Shown: positions 8,661-57,544 of the stretch, one piece after another
Layout of the letters: each line of letters starts with the position of its first letter
How positions within the stretch are numbered: position 1 is the stretch's first letter
Assembly (NCBI GenBank): GCA_944324675.1
Contig: CALUXE010000003.1
Coordinates: forward strand, 62,001-126,000
Length of the DNA stretch: 64,000 nucleotides
Source: an uncultured Elusimicrobiales bacterium
GTDB taxonomy: Bacteria; Elusimicrobiota; Elusimicrobia; Elusimicrobiales; Elusimicrobiaceae
Direction of reading: 5' to 3'
Notes under the pieces: model-generated
The model's input: the letters and a program-made list of their open reading frames with translations, nothing else
Database searches by the model: none
Told to the model about the DNA's origin: nothing
Translations under genes and position numbers: made by a program

Positions 8661-9587
8661 TTATTTTGCGTTTCTGGCTTCCAATACTTTTACGTAATCG
8701 GCTATACCTTTCTCCAAGGTATAATCGGGAGTGTAGCCGATTTTCTCCGTAGTATAGCTGATGTCGGCCTGAGTCTTCATCTGATAGAAGCTGTACGGAT
8801 TATCAATATAATCGGGCGCCAAGTTCAGCCTAAGCTCGTTGTTGAGGCATTTGACTATATCGTTAAAATTGCGCGGTATACCCGTGCCTACATTTACTAC
8901 GCAGGACTCTTTGGCATTGTTCAAAGCGCACATATTGGCTTTTATTACGTCTTTGATGTAAACGAAATCGCGCTCCTGCTCGCCCATCTTGAATATCTTC
9001 GGGCGGTATCCCTGCTTCATCTGATTGTAAAGTTGATACATCATGCTCGCCGTCTTGCCTTTGTAATATTCGCCGGGCCCGTATACGTTAAAATACCTAA
9101 GCCCGACTATTACCATATCTCTGTTTTCGGCGGCAAATTCCCTGGCGACATTATCCATTATCGCCTTGGAAAATCCGTAAATGTTCTCCGGCTTTGGAGT
9201 CTGGCTTACTTTCATCGGGCATTCCCCGTTGCCGTATGTCGCCGCCGAAGAAGCGTACACTACTCTTTTGATGTCGTTGGCCGCAGCATAGTAAAGGACA
9301 TTCTTAAACGCTTCGACGTTCATCTCCATCATCAGCTTCTGATCGTGGATATTGGTGTCGGTTATCGCCGCTTCGTGGAATATGCCGTCAAAATAATCTT
9401 CGCCCGGCATTTCCTCAAACACGTTCGCGGCGATTATGTCGCCCTTAAAACCCAACAAGTTTTTAAAATGGCCCGACGAAAAATCGTCGACAACCGTTAC
9501 GCTGTGCCCTTGGTTTTGCAACTCAAAAGCCAAATTGCTGCCGATAAAACCGGCCCCGCCCGTTATTAAATATTTCTTCTGCGTCAT
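8661..9587 (-). CDS. hldD: ADP-L-glycero-D-manno-heptose 6-epimerase, inside the atp operon
   Basis: Short-chain dehydrogenase-type epimerase making ADP-L-glycero-D-manno-heptose for the LPS inner core. NAD(P) motif GGAGFIG is at 10-16, catalytic segments are YASSAATYG (111-119) and YGFSK (Tyr137, Lys141), followed by LRYFNVYGPGE, the family-specific YKGKTASM and RDFVYIKDV. The 308-residue length is normal. It starts on the base after the atpA stop and ends 12 bases before atpG, so it must be part of the ATP synthase transcript. A more distant NDP-sugar epimerase is possible, but the match fits HldD best. With KdsC it supports an LPS-bearing outer membrane. Confidence 0.88.
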   Translation of the reverse strand: MTQKKYLITGGAGFIGSNLAFELQNQGHSVTVVDDFSSGHFKNLLGFKGDIIAANVFEEMPGEDYFDGIFHEAAITDTNIHDQKLMMEMNVEAFKNVLYYAAANDIKRVVYASSAATYGNGECPMKVSQTPKPENIYGFSKAIMDNVAREFAAENRDMVIVGLRYFNVYGPGEYYKGKTASMMYQLYNQMKQGYRPKIFKMGEQERDFVYIKDVIKANMCALNNAKESCVVNVGTGIPRNFNDIVKCLNNELRLNLAPDYIDNPYSFYQMKTQADISYTTEKIGYTPDYTLEKGIADYVKVLEARNAK

Positions 9588-20881: not shown

Positions 20882-21766
20882 CTATTTGTTTTTCTTGCTT
20901 ACCGTCAAATAGCCCATAAGACGATATATCATCTTTGCGACATTAAACTCCGATATATGGCTTCCTTTCATCGGGGCCGTTTCCACTACGTCGATGGCGA
21001 TTATTTTTTTATTCATACATACCGCTTTGAATAAAGACATAGCCTCATACCACATAAAACCGCCCGGCTGAGGTGTGCCCGTACCCGGCACCACCGACGG
21101 ATCAAAGCCGTCCACATCTATCGTGATATAAACCAAATCGCTGAGGCTCTTTAAAACCTTCTGCGTCAGTTTTTTTACATCAAGGTTGTCGTGCATAAAA
21201 TAAGTGACGACATTGCCGCTGTTGACATTTTCCTTTTCATCGCTGCCGACGGAGCGTATCCCCACCTGCACCACTTTAACTTCTTTTGAGGCGGGATACA
21301 GCGCGCAGGCGTGCGAGCGTTTATCGCCGAAATAAGATTCTCTTAAATCGGCGTGCGCGTCGAAGTGTAAAACGGAAAGTTTTTTGCCGTATTTCTTTAT
21401 ATACGGCGCTATCAAAGCCTGGGAAATGGAATGCTCTCCGCCCAGATAAAAAGGGAAGGCTTTATGTTTGGAGATATAATTCTCCACATACTTTTCTATT
21501 CGGTCAAAGACCACCTTTTCGCTCCCTTTGCAATTTATCGGGGGGAGAGTATGAATACCCTGCTTATAAGTTTCTATGCCGAGCTCCTCGTCCCAAAATT
21601 CTATTTGGGGGGAAGCCTCAATAATAGCGGCGGGGCCCAACTTCGTCCCGCCGCCGTAAGAAACCGTGCGTTCATAAGGTACTGATATTACTGCGAAGCG
21701 GCTGTCTTCTAGGGAAGGTTGTCCTTCTTCCACCGCAAGAAAATGCGTCGCGTGTTCAGGATGCAT
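20882..21766 (-). CDS. speB: Agmatinase
   Basis: Ureohydrolase splitting agmatine into putrescine and urea, 294 residues. Manganese-binding motifs of the arginase/agmatinase family are complete: GGEHSIS, LHFDAHADLR and ITIDVDGFDPSVVPGTGTP. The ATG at 21766 is preferred because AAGGTAA lies just upstream and it starts three bases after the preceding gene; a longer frame would run into that gene. Placed after the arginine decarboxylase, agmatine is the most likely substrate. Confidence 0.9.
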   Translation of the reverse strand: MHPEHATHFLAVEEGQPSLEDSRFAVISVPYERTVSYGGGTKLGPAAIIEASPQIEFWDEELGIETYKQGIHTLPPINCKGSEKVVFDRIEKYVENYISKHKAFPFYLGGEHSISQALIAPYIKKYGKKLSVLHFDAHADLRESYFGDKRSHACALYPASKEVKVVQVGIRSVGSDEKENVNSGNVVTYFMHDNLDVKKLTQKVLKSLSDLVYITIDVDGFDPSVVPGTGTPQPGGFMWYEAMSLFKAVCMNKKIIAIDVVETAPMKGSHISEFNVAKMIYRLMGYLTVSKKNK

Positions 21767-21768
21767 AA

Positions 21769-22320
21769 TTACCTTACGAATACCGCCGCCGCTACCACAG
21801 TCGTCCATAAACCGTCGACGCAGATCGCCGATTGGGTTATGTTCGTACTCTTTACGATTTTACCACTCATCTTCCAGATTTCTTCTTTCTGGTTCCAAGT
21901 GGTGTTATTGTCAAATTCTATGCCTAAGGTCGTCGAAAGCATCATCGCGGCCAAATCTTCGGCGTAATCGCCGGCTTTCTGGTCGGCCTCGCCGAAGCTG
22001 TGATGCTCGGATATATACCCGTGCGTATTTTTGTCTTTCGGAATAGCCAATCCGACGGAAGCGGATATTAAGCGCCTGTTTTCGTTGCTGGTGTTTCTGC
22101 TGATTACGCAGTGCAGTATCTGCCCGGCGTGCAAATGTTCCAGCCCTTTGCTGATTGAAACCACCTTGCACTTAGGCGGGAAAATGCTTGATACCGGCAC
22201 CAAGTTGAATTTAGCTATTTTCGCGTCTCTAAGAGCTTCTTCAAAGCTCGCGAGTTTTTCTTTATGTCTGCCTACACCTTTAGTAAGGAATATCTCCCTT
22301 GGAACAAATGGTTCGTACAT
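21769..22320 (-). CDS. Pyruvoyl-dependent arginine decarboxylase
   Basis: Self-cleaving enzyme converting arginine to agmatine, 183 residues. The serinolysis site is in VPVSSIFPP, with Ser44-Ser45: cleavage between them gives a small beta chain and an alpha chain capped by the pyruvoyl group. GLAIPKDKNTHGYISEHH and the later Asp/Glu-rich helix are typical of PvlArgDC. This form replaces the PLP enzyme SpeA in archaea, chlamydiae and assorted bacteria. It leads a two-gene operon with agmatinase, giving arginine to putrescine, and the same reaction can buffer acid. Confidence 0.92.
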   Translation of the reverse strand: MYEPFVPREIFLTKGVGRHKEKLASFEEALRDAKIAKFNLVPVSSIFPPKCKVVSISKGLEHLHAGQILHCVISRNTSNENRRLISASVGLAIPKDKNTHGYISEHHSFGEADQKAGDYAEDLAAMMLSTTLGIEFDNNTTWNQKEEIWKMSGKIVKSTNITQSAICVDGLWTTVVAAAVFVR

Positions 22321-24732: not shown

Positions 24733-24888
24733 TTACTGAGCCGAGAATTGATCCTTCCCTACCCCGCATACCGGGCAAACCCAAGTTTCAGGGACATCGG
24801 CCCATTTCGTCCCGGCCGCTATCCCGTTTGACGGATCGCCGATTTCCTCGTCGTATACATATCCGCATACATTGCACACGTATTTCAT
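24733..24888 (-). CDS. Rubredoxin
   Basis: A 51-residue one-iron electron carrier. Cys5-x2-Cys8 ([13 protein letters not shown]) and Cys38-x2-Cys41 ([12 protein letters not shown]) hold the Fe(Cys)4 site, and GDPSNGI plus the Trp/Pro residues between are standard. Its ATG overlaps the TGA of the flavin reductase gene (ATGA), and its ribosome site AAGGAGG is built from the last codons of that gene, so translation is coupled. It probably passes electrons to the A-type flavoprotein, rubrerythrin and superoxide reductase of the same operon. Confidence 0.97.
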
Positions 24889-25412
24889 TTTGCTCCTCCT
24901 TGATAATCTTTAAAAGTAGTGGCGCCTTTTGGCGTCTTGCCTTTAAGCACCGTCTGATAATAATCGTAAGTTAAAGGCTTGCACAGATCGCACAGAACCT
25001 CGGCCTCTTTTATCGGTCCGATAAACATCGTATGAGTACCCAAATCTATACTCTGTTTTACCTCTACCGACAAAACCGCCAAAGTGTTTTCCGTAACGAC
25101 GGGCAAACCGTCTTCGTTCACTTTATATTGCACTTTGGAAAATTTATCGAAGTCCCGTCCGCTTCTAAAGCCGAAAATGCCTATAAACGGCATTTGCGCC
25201 GTTTCCATAAGAGGTTGTACGCAGAATTTCTTTGACGACATTATATAATCGTGCGTAAGAGAATTCTTGTTTAAAGCTACAGCCACCTGCGCCGGCTGCG
25301 CCGTTACCTGAAATACGGAATTGGCTATAAGGCCGTTAAACTTTCCGTCTTTTTCGCTGCTGACGATAAATAGTCCGTAAGATAAATCCGACAATGCTTT
25401 AACATCTATCAT
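24885..25412 (-). CDS. FMN-binding flavin reductase-like protein (Hrb N-terminal type)
   Basis: A 175-residue member of the flavin reductase-like FMN-binding family. The N-terminus ([30 protein letters not shown]) and GPIKEAEVL are family marks. In acetogens such as Moorella, the same domain is fused to a C-terminal rubredoxin (high-molecular-weight rubredoxin, Hrb), which moves electrons from NAD(P)H to the A-type flavoprotein. Here the two halves are separate genes overlapping by four bases. The ATG shares a base with the fprA stop (TAATG). Confidence 0.88.
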
Positions 25413-26608
25413 TATTTATTCTTCTCCAATACCTTTTTGCCTACCGCCAAACCAAGCTCAAAACACTCTTTCAGCTTGTCTTCCGTAGGGACAAATCTGC
25501 TTTTTACGGCGGGCGCCGCTATTTCTATATTGAGCTTTTCTTTCATAATAGTTTCAAGCTCGTTTAAGGCCCCGTCGCTCCAGCCGTAAGAGCCGAATGC
25601 CGCGCCTACTAGATTTTGCTTCTTCAAGCCTTTGAAATAGGTTATCAAATCGCCCAAAGAAGGATACAACTCCTGATTTAATACCGGCGAACCCAGCACC
25701 AGACCCGCACTGTCCAACAGTTCCGTGGCGGCGTCGCTTCTGTGAGCGGCGTGTAAAGACATTTGCTTTACTTCCACTCCGGCGGCTATTAACCCGTCGG
25801 TAACGGAAGAGGCCATCTTCTCCGTACTGCCCCACATTGTATCGTATATAACCAATACTTTGTTTTTGTTTTTCTGCGCCGCAAATTCAGCATAAAGATT
25901 AATTATCTTCGACGGATCCTTACGCCATATCGGACCGTGGTCCGGGCAGATTATACTCGGCTTTATGCCCAATTTTGTCACCTGTCCCAAAAAGGCCGTC
26001 ACTATCTTGGAATAGGGCAATATGATATTGGCATAATATTTTTTTGCTTCGTAAATCCAGTCCTTTTCGCAGACTTCGTCGTCAAAACGTTTGCAGCTGG
26101 CGTAATGCATGCCGAAAATATCATTGCAGAAAAGAACGTTCTCTTTCTTCAAAAGGCATATCATACTGTCGGGCCAGTGCAGCATTCTGGATTCTATAAA
26201 AGTCAAACTGTCTTGTCCGATGTCCAGGCTTCCGCCGTTGGCTATCTCTTCCACAGGCAAGTCCTCGCCCAAATGCGCTTTTAAATTCGCCGTACCCATT
26301 ACAGAGGCGTACACGTGTTCAGGCGCCATATCGGCTATCGCCATTTTTAAAGAACCGCTGTGGTCCAGTTCGGCGTGATTGGATATGATTATATCCACCT
26401 TTTTGGGGTCTATCACGCTTTTTATTCTTGAAAGCATCTCTTGATAAAACTCTTTCTTGACGGTGTCTATAAGAGTTATCTTATCGCCCAGTATCAAAAA
26501 AGCGTTATACGTAGTGCCTTTGTTCGTAGAATAACCGTGGAAATCCCTTACATTCCAATCTATCGCGCCTACCCAATATATCTTTTCCGTAACTTTTATC
26601 GCCTGCAT
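25412..26608 (-). CDS. fprA: A-type flavoprotein, rubredoxin:oxygen/NO oxidoreductase
   Basis: Cytoplasmic flavodiiron protein, 398 residues, reducing O2 to water and/or NO to N2O. The N-terminal metallo-beta-lactamase domain has the full diiron set: His78, Glu80, Asp82 and His83 in NHAELDH, His144, Asp163 and His224. A flavodoxin domain begins near residue 250 with VIYDTMWGSTEKMA, the FMN phosphate loop. There is no C-terminal rubredoxin extension; electrons presumably come from the next two genes. O2 or NO preference cannot be told from sequence. Confidence 0.96.
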   Translation of the reverse strand: MQAIKVTEKIYWVGAIDWNVRDFHGYSTNKGTTYNAFLILGDKITLIDTVKKEFYQEMLSRIKSVIDPKKVDIIISNHAELDHSGSLKMAIADMAPEHVYASVMGTANLKAHLGEDLPVEEIANGGSLDIGQDSLTFIESRMLHWPDSMICLLKKENVLFCNDIFGMHYASCKRFDDEVCEKDWIYEAKKYYANIILPYSKIVTAFLGQVTKLGIKPSIICPDHGPIWRKDPSKIINLYAEFAAQKNKNKVLVIYDTMWGSTEKMASSVTDGLIAAGVEVKQMSLHAAHRSDAATELLDSAGLVLGSPVLNQELYPSLGDLITYFKGLKKQNLVGAAFGSYGWSDGALNELETIMKEKLNIEIAAPAVKSRFVPTEDKLKECFELGLAVGKKVLEKNK

Positions 26609-26629
26609 ATTCCCTATTCCTTATCTTCT

Positions 26630-27013
26630 TTATTTTTTATCCGCCGACCACAATCCGTGCAAATTGCAGTATTCCCGGGCTTTGACAACTTTACCGTTAA
26701 AGCTGAATTTCGCTTCCGGTTTATCCCCGGGTTTTAAGTATTTGCGCCCGATTTTGCCATCATCGGTAAGAACTTCTATAAATTCTATATAATGCTCCGC
26801 CAGCATCGGGTGCGCGGCTGAGCCGACTTTTACCAAAATACCATCATCAAGATATTCTATTACCGGGACGTGTTTTTCCAAGGCGCCGTCGCTGGAGCCT
26901 TCTTTCATCTTAATCATAGGCTTGCCGCAGCAGACCAGCTCCCCGCCGCCGACATGCAGCACTTCCACTATATTGCCGCATACCGGGCATTTATATACAT
27001 CGTTCAATTCCAT
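26630..27013 (-). CDS. dfx: Desulfoferrodoxin (two-iron superoxide reductase)
   Basis: Reduces superoxide to hydrogen peroxide without making O2. In 127 residues, centre I (Cys9, Cys12, Cys28, Cys29) is the desulforedoxin-like FeS4 site and centre II is the catalytic site: Glu46 and His48 in LEKHVP, His68, His74, Cys116 and His119 in EYCNLHGLW. All ligands are present, so this is the 2Fe class. Peroxide made here would be removed by the neighbouring thiol peroxidase and rubrerythrin. Confidence 0.97.
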
Positions 27014-27022
27014 ATTATCCCC

Positions 27023-27529
27023 CTATATCAATTCTTTGACTTTACTTAAAACGCTTTCGTAATCCGGTTCGTTTGATACTTCCTCTACAAACTGAATATA
27101 TCTTATTATGCCTTGAGCGTCTATTATAAAAACCGCCCTGGCAAGCAGGCCCAATCCCTCAATCAAAACGCCGTAATCCTTGGAAAAGGAAGTGTTTTTA
27201 TAATCCGAAAGAGTCTGCAGGTTCTTTACTCCCTGCGCGGCGCACCATCTGCTTTGCGCGAAAGGCAAATCCTTACTGACGGTAAGTATTTTTATCTTTT
27301 CGCCCAATTTGCCGGCCTCTTGGTTAAAGCGCGCCGTCTCAAGAGAGCAAGTCGGCGTATCAAGAGAAGGCACCGTTGTCAAAATAACGACGCGTCCCTT
27401 AAAATCTTTAAGGGACACGTCGCTTAAATCATTGGCGGAAAGCGTAAAATCCGGCGCCGCCGCGCCGACTTTAAGCTCCTCGCCCAATAAAGAGAATTTA
27501 TTCCCGTTAAGGGTTATTTCTCTTGCCAT
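27023..27529 (-). CDS. tpx: Thiol peroxidase (Tpx-type peroxiredoxin)
   Basis: Atypical two-cysteine peroxiredoxin, 168 residues. The start at 27529 (MAREITLNGN) is chosen because it matches the family N-terminus and sits four bases after rubrerythrin; a longer frame would overlap that gene. Peroxidatic Cys61 is in VPSLDTPTCSLETARFN and resolving Cys96 in SRWCAAQG, spaced as in E. coli Tpx. It detoxifies peroxides with thioredoxin-type reductants. Confidence 0.96.
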   Translation of the reverse strand: MAREITLNGNKFSLLGEELKVGAAAPDFTLSANDLSDVSLKDFKGRVVILTTVPSLDTPTCSLETARFNQEAGKLGEKIKILTVSKDLPFAQSRWCAAQGVKNLQTLSDYKNTSFSKDYGVLIEGLGLLARAVFIIDAQGIIRYIQFVEEVSNEPDYESVLSKVKELI

Positions 27530-27533
27530 AGTA

Positions 27534-28106
27534 TTACCAATTCTCGCAGAGAAGCTCAAAATAAGCCTGAGCGTGAGCGCAAGCCGGGCATTTTTCCGGC
27601 GCTTCCTTGCCTTCATGCAAATACCCGCAGTTCAGACATCTCCATATAACGGGAGCGGATTTTTTAAACACCGTGCCATCAAGAATATTCTTCCTGAGTC
27701 CTTTATATCTGTTGGAATGTTGTTTTTCCGCTACGGCTATATTCTCCATAACCACTGCGATTTCTTCAAAACCTTCTTCCCTAGCAACTTTGGCGAAATC
27801 GGGATACATATGCTGCCATTCGTGGTCTTCGCCCGCGGCGGCTTCTTTAAGATTATCTTCCGTACTGCCGATTACCCCGGCAGGGAAAGAAGCCGTTATT
27901 TCAACTTCTCCGCCCTCTAAAAACTTGAACAGCCTTTCGGCGTGTTCTTTTTCCTGGGCGGCGGTTTCCTCAAAAATCTTGCTTATTTGGACATATCCGT
28001 CTTTCTTGGCTTTGCTGGCAAAGAAAGTATATCTGTTTCTGGCTTGCGATTCCCCGGCGAAAGCCGTAAGAATGTTTTTTTCAGTTTTTGTTCCTTTTAA
28101 GTTCAT
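27534..28106 (-). CDS. rbr: Rubrerythrin
   Basis: NADH-linked peroxide reductase of anaerobes, 190 residues. The ferritin-like four-helix domain carries the diiron ligands in AGESQARNRY, EETAAQEKEHAE and ENIAVAEKQHSNRY, and the C-terminal rubredoxin domain has RCLNCGYLHEG and KCPACAHAQAYFE, giving Cys-x2-Cys twice. It is the first gene of the six-gene oxygen-defence operon. GGAGG precedes the ATG. Upstream lie a TATACT -10 candidate at 28137-28132 and a dyad at 28157-28172. Confidence 0.97.
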   Translation of the reverse strand: MNLKGTKTEKNILTAFAGESQARNRYTFFASKAKKDGYVQISKIFEETAAQEKEHAERLFKFLEGGEVEITASFPAGVIGSTEDNLKEAAAGEDHEWQHMYPDFAKVAREEGFEEIAVVMENIAVAEKQHSNRYKGLRKNILDGTVFKKSAPVIWRCLNCGYLHEGKEAPEKCPACAHAQAYFELLCENW

Positions 28107-55565: not shown

Positions 55566-55618
55566 TTTATTTTGCCGTATAAAAAGCTAATATAAAAAAA
55601 GCTGTGTTTGGAGGCTCT

Positions 55619-56161
55619 ATGACACATTATAGTAAATTAGTAGAAAAGAAAATAAAGAGCGAAAAGATATATCGAGGAGTGACGGGCTTTAATGTAGATA
55701 CGGTAAGACTTGTAAACGGGAAGACGTCTTTTCGGGAATATATGTTACATCCAGGGGCCAGCGCGGTGCTGGCTTTTATAGAAGGCAAGGTGCTGTTGGT
55801 CGAACAATATCGTTATCCTGTTAAGAAGATAACTTTGGAACTTCCGGCGGGCAAAATGAAGAAGGGGCAAACTCCGCTCGCCTGCGCCCGCGCCGAGCTG
55901 GAGGAAGAAACGGGCTATAAAGCGGGCAAAATAAAGAAACTTCTAAGTTTTAACACCTCGGTAGCTTTTTCCGACGAAGTGTTGCATATATATCTGGCGG
56001 AGAATTTAAAACGCGGCAAAATGCATTTGGACGCGGACGAATTTGTCAACGTAAAACTTATAGATTATAAAAAAGCTCTAAAAATGGTAAAAAGCGGGAA
56101 GATAAGCGATTCCAAAACGGTGATAGCCTTGCTTTATTATCAAAATTTTCACGGTGCTTAA
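55619..56161 (+). CDS. Nudix hydrolase, ADP-ribose pyrophosphatase type
   Basis: A 180-residue Nudix enzyme probably splitting ADP-ribose. The ATG at 55619 is chosen because GGAGG lies just before it. FIEGKVLLVEQYRYPVKKITLELPAGK is the typical ADPR-hydrolase lead-in. In the Nudix box (GKMKKGQTPLACARAELEEE then TGY) the catalytic ELxEE part is intact, but the usual first Glu is Gln and the Arg before the first catalytic Glu is Ala, with an Arg one position earlier. Activity seems likely, but the changes are unusual. Confidence 0.85.
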   Translation: MTHYSKLVEKKIKSEKIYRGVTGFNVDTVRLVNGKTSFREYMLHPGASAVLAFIEGKVLLVEQYRYPVKKITLELPAGKMKKGQTPLACARAELEEETGYKAGKIKKLLSFNTSVAFSDEVLHIYLAENLKRGKMHLDADEFVNVKLIDYKKALKMVKSGKISDSKTVIALLYYQNFHGA

Positions 56162-56219: not shown

Positions 56220-57092
56220 ATGGCAACTATACTGGAAGGGAAAACTTTGGCAGCCGCGATAAGAGAAAGCCTGCCTCAAAAAGCCAAAGAACTAAGCGCG
56301 AAGCTGGGGAGAGCGCCAAGGCTTGTCGGCGTTTCTTGGCAAGGCGATTACGCGGGGCATCTTTATTTGACCAAAGAAGTAAACGCCGCGCGCAAAACGG
56401 GAATACAGGCCGACATTGTATTGGTGGACGCCAAAACATCAGCGGGCGATTTTGTCAAACTGTTATCCAAGATTTATGGCGATAAAACGATAGACGCCCT
56501 GCTGATCCCCCGTCCTTTGCCGCCGGCATTAAACGGGTTGGACATTTCACTATTGATAAATCCCGATCAAGACATAGACGGGGCGGGCCTTATAAGTATG
56601 GGGCGGCTGTTTATGTGCAAGACTTGGGACGACGTGTTAAAATTAGACAGTTTTGTGCCCTGCTGCCCTCTTGCGGTAATGCGTCTTTTAGAGTATCATA
56701 AGATAGCTCTCCGCGGGAAGAAGGTTTGCGTAATCGGGCGCAGCAATACGGTAGGCGGCCCCTTGGCCAAAATGCTGATGTGCAAAGACGCTACGGTAAC
56801 GGTCTGCCATACCAAAACAAAAGATTTAAGGGAAGTATTGCTGGAACAGGATATAGCGATCAGCGCCGCGGGGCAAGCCAGATTTATCAAAAAAGAAATG
56901 GTAAAAAAAGGTACAATACTGATAGATGTCGGCACCAATCAAGACGAAGAAGGAAGGTTTTGCGGAGATATCGATTTTGAAAACATAAAAGAGAGCTGCG
57001 CGATTTCGCCGGTTCCGGGCGGAGTAGGGCCGGTAACCTTGGCGTGTCTGCTTGAGCACACTTTGCGCGCGGCCGAGAGGAAATTAAAATGA
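56220..57092 (+). CDS. folD: FolD-family protein with altered catalytic residues
   Basis: Homologue of methylene-THF dehydrogenase/methenyl-THF cyclohydrolase, 290 residues. The family fold is clear: INPDQDIDGAG, VPCCPLAVMRLLEYHKI, the NADP site GRSNTVGGP, VTVCHTKT and the ending SPVPGGVGPVTLACLLEHTL. But the Y-x3-K motif reads Tyr49-Leu-Thr-Lys-Glu53, with no gap to the following Gly61, so the catalytic Lys position is Glu; and the VQLPLP motif reads IPRPLP, replacing the partner Gln by Pro97. The aspartate (Asp118) remains. Cyclohydrolase activity is therefore doubtful; the dehydrogenase may remain, or function may have changed. The end overlaps the next gene by four bases. Confidence 0.85.
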   Translation: MATILEGKTLAAAIRESLPQKAKELSAKLGRAPRLVGVSWQGDYAGHLYLTKEVNAARKTGIQADIVLVDAKTSAGDFVKLLSKIYGDKTIDALLIPRPLPPALNGLDISLLINPDQDIDGAGLISMGRLFMCKTWDDVLKLDSFVPCCPLAVMRLLEYHKIALRGKKVCVIGRSNTVGGPLAKMLMCKDATVTVCHTKTKDLREVLLEQDIAISAAGQARFIKKEMVKKGTILIDVGTNQDEEGRFCGDIDFENIKESCAISPVPGGVGPVTLACLLEHTLRAAERKLK

Positions 57093-57544
57093 GAAAACTT
57101 CTACTTTTCATAATACTCCCCGCGTTTTTTGCCGGATGTTACGGCGGCGGGACGTCTTCCGGTAAAATAAAGGAGAGGACTTTCAACGAGCAAATAGCGG
57201 CCTTGGAAAAGGAGCCTGTTCCGGAAGATTACAAAAGCGATTTACAAGGAGGCGCTTTGCAAAGCGACGTAGACAGAGCTTTGGACGTATCGGCGCAAGC
57301 GCAAAGAGAACGCCGCGGCGGCTCGCCTTTGGTGGAATCGGATTATATTTTTAGGGTAATGCCCGATAAAGGCACGTATAGTTTTGACGAGTATAATCAA
57401 GTCTGGACCGATGAGCCCAAGTCGGCCGACTATAAGAATACAAAAAGATTATGGGCCAAACCCAAAGCATTCAAGCCGGAAGAAGTTTCCGCCGATTATT
57501 CCTATGAGGAAACTTCCGGCGACGAATATTCTTACGAAGAATAA
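57089..57544 (+). CDS. Small lipoprotein with acidic Tyr-rich C-terminus
   Basis: A 151-residue lipoprotein: MRKLLLFIILPAFFAGC, lipobox FAGC with Cys17, then a Gly/Ser linker. The mature part is highly polar and probably partly disordered, and the C-terminus carries two near-copies of [DE]YSYEE. No family is recognised. The ATG overlaps the folD stop (ATGA), so the pair is co-translated. Confidence 0.78.
   Translation: MRKLLLFIILPAFFAGCYGGGTSSGKIKERTFNEQIAALEKEPVPEDYKSDLQGGALQSDVDRALDVSAQAQRERRGGSPLVESDYIFRVMPDKGTYSFDEYNQVWTDEPKSADYKNTKRLWAKPKAFKPEEVSADYSYEETSGDEYSYEE

Follow-up and report, generated by a model that had tools for sequence, protein, structure and literature searches.

The single folD gene in the window, i.e. 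the whole stretch of 64,000 nucleotides from an uncultured Elusimicrobiales bacterium that was analysed here, presumably encodes a FolD restricted to the dehydrogenase activity, the cyclohydrolysis having passed to a separate FchA-like protein that derives from the FTCD of histidine degradation and was kept after this pathway had been lost. We assign a probability of roughly 70% to this reading, in which we infer the activities of both proteins as well as the causal order.

The folD gene and its active site

The genome containing the window comprises 1.40 Mb on 17 contigs and is 99.7% complete. Judged by FolD, its closest named relatives are Elusimicrobiota MAGs (79-92% identity). The FolD protein matches PF00763 (3.4e-17) and PF02882 (1.1e-56) above the cut-offs and over its whole length, and its best sequence match in the PDB is 3p2o (7.5e-53). 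An AlphaFold2 model calculated from alignment A1 (24 sequences) reached a mean pLDDT of 92.5 and a pTM of 0.91. According to Foldseek, the model shares the fold of bifunctional FolD structures (TM 0.83-0.93), the top match among solved structures being C. jejuni FolD (TM 0.93). The features of the gene and its neighbours are as follows (f1, host family; f2, the sister family of f1 within the order):

55604..56161, + strand: NUDIX hydrolase gene, upstream neighbour with no known link to folD (ORF and Pfam)
56220..57092, + strand: folD, 290 aa, predicted dehydrogenase-only 5,10-methylene-THF dehydrogenase (ORF, Pfam, PDB matches, AlphaFold2 model, Foldseek)
56364..56366, + strand: Tyr49, equivalent to E. 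coli Tyr50, the substrate-stacking Tyr, kept (alignments)
56373..56375, + strand: Lys52, corresponding to E. coli position 53, found in 45/45 family members and a possible substitute for the catalytic lysine (family alignment)
56376..56378, + strand: Glu53, replacing the catalytic Lys54 in 45/45 family members (alignments)
56508..56510, + strand: Pro97, replacing Gln98; in the family Pro 38, Ala 8, n=46 (alignments)
56511..56513, + strand: Arg98, where E. coli has Leu99; 45/46 of the family and 24/24 of f2 have Arg or Lys
56577..56579, + strand: Asp120, equivalent to E. coli Asp121, the pterin-binding Asp, kept (alignments)
56736..56762, + strand: GRSNTVGGP dinucleotide-binding motif, kept (translation, PF02882 match, invariant S175 and G179)
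57089..57544, + strand: gene of unknown family, its ATG overlapping the folD stop (ORF and Pfam)

The last of these genes is possibly co-transcribed with folD. A DNA polymerase III alpha gene is located upstream of folD on the opposite strand.

At the E. coli positions 50, 54, 98 and 121 two alignments consistently gave Tyr, Glu, Pro and Asp in the window FolD versus Tyr, Lys, Gln and Asp in the E. coli enzyme. The segment Tyr49-Leu-Thr-Lys52-Glu53 corresponds to E. coli Tyr50-Val-Ala-Ser-Lys54, and Pro97-Arg98 to Gln98-Leu. Tyr49 and Gly61 both occupy invariant alignment columns with no gap between them, and helix 44-59 of the model is unbroken across the region of the changed residues. Among the residues expected of a bifunctional FolD the substrate-binding Tyr and Asp are thus retained, whereas the catalytic Lys of the YxxxK motif and the Gln of the Q-L-P-L-P loop are both replaced. 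An earlier note on this DNA had assigned the missing Lys and Gln to Glu53 and Pro97, had seen no gap between the Tyr and the conserved Gly, and had regarded the rest of the fold and the NADP site as intact; its numbering is correct in both alignments, and the model together with GRSNTVGGP and Asp120 bears out the remainder.

Aligned with its relatives, as that note had suggested, the protein turns out to carry a fixed change. Lys-Glu was found at E. coli positions 53-54 in each of the 45 host-family FolDs that are readable in this stretch, the Glu being encoded by GAA in 36 and by GAG in nine of them, while the residue preceding the invariant Lys is variable. Pairwise dN/dS values of folD among near relatives range from 0.04 to 0.11, and this type of FolD is under strong purifying selection. 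Sequencing error, chance and a pseudogene were rejected as explanations on account of this selection and of the family-wide occurrence of the change. On the evidence of the alignment, the invariant Glu at the Lys54 position exceeds what relaxed selection would leave. The sister family f2 retains Lys54 but has Glu instead of Gln98 in 24/24 sequences, with Arg or Lys following at position 99, which counts against the proposed reading.

The effects of comparable replacements have been described for the E. coli and human enzymes. In E. coli FolD the K54N variant retains 19% of the dehydrogenase activity with undetectable cyclohydrolase, and Q98H retains 8% and about 1%, respectively (PMC5688156). 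For the K56E variant of human MTHFD1, the account of the dehydrogenase assay in PMC9173628 gives a more than six-fold increase in KM and a hardly altered kinetic isotope ratio. In PMC3368264 the Lys and the Gln of FolD are described as cooperating in hydride transfer, and the Lys additionally as a possible carrier of protons during the cyclohydrolase reaction. Based on these mutant data and the roles of both residues, dehydrogenase activity without cyclohydrolase is to be expected of the window FolD, and the earlier proposal of a dehydrogenase-only enzyme is well supported by analogy with the E. coli mutants. Since K54N FolD is insensitive to carolacton and Q98H FolD much less sensitive (PMC5688156), insensitivity to this compound is likewise predicted for the FolDs of the host family.

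The free-standing FTCD_C protein and the probable loss of histidine degradation

The earlier note had also pointed to a second folD, fchA or formyl-THF synthetase as genes to look for elsewhere. In the 99.7% complete genome neither a second folD nor an Fhs was found, although some relatives have Fhs, and a single free-standing protein of the FTCD_C family (methenyl-THF cyclohydrolase (FchA)/cyclodeaminase) was detected (195 aa, 142.6 bits, L240:7003-7590 on contig C11). FchA is its sole NCBIfam match, with 80.2 bits falling far below the cut-off of 275 bits for that equivalog. Among PDB sequences the methenyl-THF cyclohydrolase 7vg4 matches it best, followed by 1o5h and then by the FTCD 1tt9. 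On these similarities we regard it as a protein that probably works like FchA without classing it as a member.

A separate glutamate formiminotransferase (334 aa, above its NCBIfam cut-off) is encoded on a different contig. Glutamate formiminotransferases reportedly have a 5-formyl-THF salvage activity, and the leftover enzyme may serve this purpose. A serC-like aminotransferase gene follows it directly on its 3' side and on the same strand (L239:5016-7176), in a genome without urocanase. Urocanase was absent both from this genome and from eight tested relatives of the host family that have a standalone FTCD_C and no fused FTCD.

FTCD_C was found in all host-family genomes that are at least 85% complete. 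The f2 genomes encode a fused formiminotransferase-FTCD_C protein and, in seven of the eight tested, urocanase. Two host-family genomes (G019, G021) combine an altered FolD with the fused FTCD as their only FTCD_C and have kept urocanase, so that the presence of a free-standing FchA is no strict requirement. In another two (G010, G020) the standalone FTCD_C is accompanied by an additional, fused FTCD that belongs to a foreign branch, and by urocanase, which in G010 lies on the same contig.

In the FTCD_C tree the free-standing proteins of the host family form one clade (98/91), which together with a single free-standing copy from f2 (G051) is sister to the fused domains of f2, G019 and G021. 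This placement indicates an origin of the free-standing form inside the Elusimicrobiales branch of FTCD, either through fission or through a duplication that preceded the split of f1 and f2.

Taking these observations together, FolD would oxidise methylene-THF to methenyl-THF, the residues binding the substrate and NADP being kept. The cyclohydrolase activity would have been lost with the Lys that activates the substrate and water, now Glu53, and with its partner Gln, now Pro97. Glu53 is presumably unable to provide the function of the Lys and may, as a speculation, stabilise the cationic product. 5,10-Methenyl-THF would then be opened to 10-formyl-THF by the separate 195-aa protein in the manner of FchA. 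In the sister lineages the cyclodeaminase domain of FTCD, fused to the formiminotransferase, would serve histidine degradation, whereas the gut lineages lack urocanase and carry the parts of FTCD as separate genes. The FTCD_C protein would have been retained after the loss of the pathway because FolD no longer performs the cyclohydrolase step, FolD having either depended on it already or come to depend on it later.

It seems unlikely that methenyl-THF is instead left to open spontaneously next to a dehydrogenase-only FolD, with FTCD_C acting solely as a formimino-THF cyclodeaminase alongside the separate formiminotransferase. Cyclohydrolase-dead folD mutants of E. coli are indeed viable, which the authors credit to spontaneous hydrolysis, but K54N cells grow very slowly, which in the authors' view may reflect the total loss of cyclohydrolase (PMC5688156). 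The formiminotransferase gene would still permit a cyclodeaminase role in this genome; however, with urocanase absent there is no known internal source of formiminoglutamate, and FTCD_C has been kept throughout the reduced genomes. Furthermore, the 98% complete host-family genome G024 encodes FTCD_C and lacks the formiminotransferase, so that no formimino-THF would be formed by that route.

Quite unlikely, too, is a FolD that is still bifunctional owing to Lys52, which directly precedes Glu53 in the helix and could replace Lys54. The Lys at this position is invariant (45/45) next to a variable preceding residue, as would suit such a substitution. In a straight helix, however, residues at i+3 and i+4 project in directions that differ by about 100 degrees, and the model shows no break in helix 44-59. 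In addition, the pocket position is held by an invariant Glu, the partner Gln is gone as well and an FchA-like protein is retained in the genome.

That the window FolD has left folate C1 metabolism for another job is highly improbable, given that the Tyr, the Asp, the NADP motifs and the fold are unchanged and that it is the sole folD of a genome with otherwise no recognised family enzyme for the dehydrogenase step; the conserved rather than drifting Lys-Glu pair does suggest some new function, yet the other role offered as an alternative in the earlier note is not needed in view of the support for a dehydrogenase-only enzyme.

FolD and FTCD_C across the phylum

The preferred reading of a dehydrogenase-only FolD paired with an FTCD-derived protein is consistent with the distribution of both proteins in the phylum. 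Among the typed genomes, FTCD_C is present in 91 of the 94 with an altered (non-canonical) FolD and absent from 47 of the 51 with a canonical one (present in four). The three with an altered FolD and no FTCD_C are G048, G059 and G105, the first two of which have Fhs. A Fisher test on these counts gives p ~1e-29, a value that takes no account of relatedness and from which we draw no conclusion on significance.

In the families f11, f13, f15 and f17-f19 (L196-L222) FolD carries K54Q together with D121E, and a free-standing FTCD_C is always present; in 10 of the 18 genomes with both genes on one contig this fchA-like FTCD_C gene lies no more than 300 bp from folD. The clade would be an independent case of the same decoupling. 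A single Fusobacteriaceae FolD with K54Q also comes from a genome with a standalone FTCD_C.

A FolD tree built without the active-site columns places four changes at Lys54, namely in f1, in the f11-f19 clade, in the Fusobacteriaceae sequence and, as Lys to Arg, in f7. A phylogenetic sign test of FolD type against FTCD_C had only two to four independent pairs at its disposal. With three or four independent losses of the Lys, the association is therefore strong as a pattern, not as statistics.

A more far-reaching version, which we hold tentatively and at slightly below even odds, is a family-wide split FolD in which the fixed Glu has a positive function, e.g. stabilising the methenyl cation, and cyclohydrolysis is carried out by the freed FTCD domain, so that a central C1 step would depend on the remnant of a lost pathway, the same decoupling having occurred separately in another clade.

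As a separate observation, f7, f8 and G055 (L167, L169-L171, L174, L176, L087) encode a second FolD paralogue, divergent in sequence, in which the motifs read YRDL/YRNL and YPL. Both the catalytic Lys and the Gln are missing from this paralogue, which is possibly a monofunctional dehydrogenase. FolDs of about 600 aa in f7 that resemble fusions were rejected as such, the additional length apparently being open frame ahead of the start codon in GC-rich DNA.

Relation to known enzymes and further observations

The window FolD shares full-length homology, the fold (TM 0.87-0.93), the Tyr, the Asp and the NADP motif with bifunctional FolD/MTHFD1 (E. coli 1b0a, C. jejuni 3p2o, human 1a4i), from which it differs by Lys to Glu, by Gln to Pro and by the predicted lack of cyclohydrolase. 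Yeast MTD1 (1edz) belongs to a distant branch (E 3e-12) and is NAD-dependent, which is a further difference. Dehydrogenase activity without cyclohydrolase, as predicted here, is common to MTD1 and the Peptostreptococcus productus enzyme (named in PMC6443876).

With FchA (7vg4) the 195-aa protein has the FTCD_C family in common; it differs in its NCBIfam score, which is far below the FchA cut-off, and in belonging to the Elusimicrobiales FTCD branch. Both halves of the FTCD of histidine degradation (1tt9, 2pfd) occur in the genome and are homologous to the fused enzyme of the sister lineages, here encoded by two genes that lie on separate contigs of a genome lacking urocanase.

Dehydrogenase-only enzymes and a separate FchA are each already known (PMC6443876, PMC7219735). 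In the open-access literature we found no report of the FolD change or of a takeover by FTCD_C in Elusimicrobiota, and the clade-wide Glu/Pro FolD and its pairing with an FTCD-derived protein appear to be new. FolD is widespread, and its family models carry the name 'bifunctional', which is probably wrong for the whole host family as well as for other clades of the phylum. These proteins would offer natural dehydrogenase-only enzymes for probing how one active site performs two reactions. They may furthermore exemplify, in a bacterial family found mostly in the gut, how the remnant of a gene takes over an activity that a central enzyme has lost.

Elsewhere in the window, overlapping genes for a pyruvoyl-dependent arginine decarboxylase and an arginase-family (agmatinase-like) protein (20882-22320) likely form a putrescine route. 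A cluster encoding a flavin reductase, an ODP/flavodoxin protein, a desulfoferrodoxin and a redoxin (24885-27616) likely represents the oxygen defence of an anaerobe. Within the ATP synthase operon, an NAD-dependent epimerase gene (8661-9587) is located between the genes of the alpha and gamma subunits.
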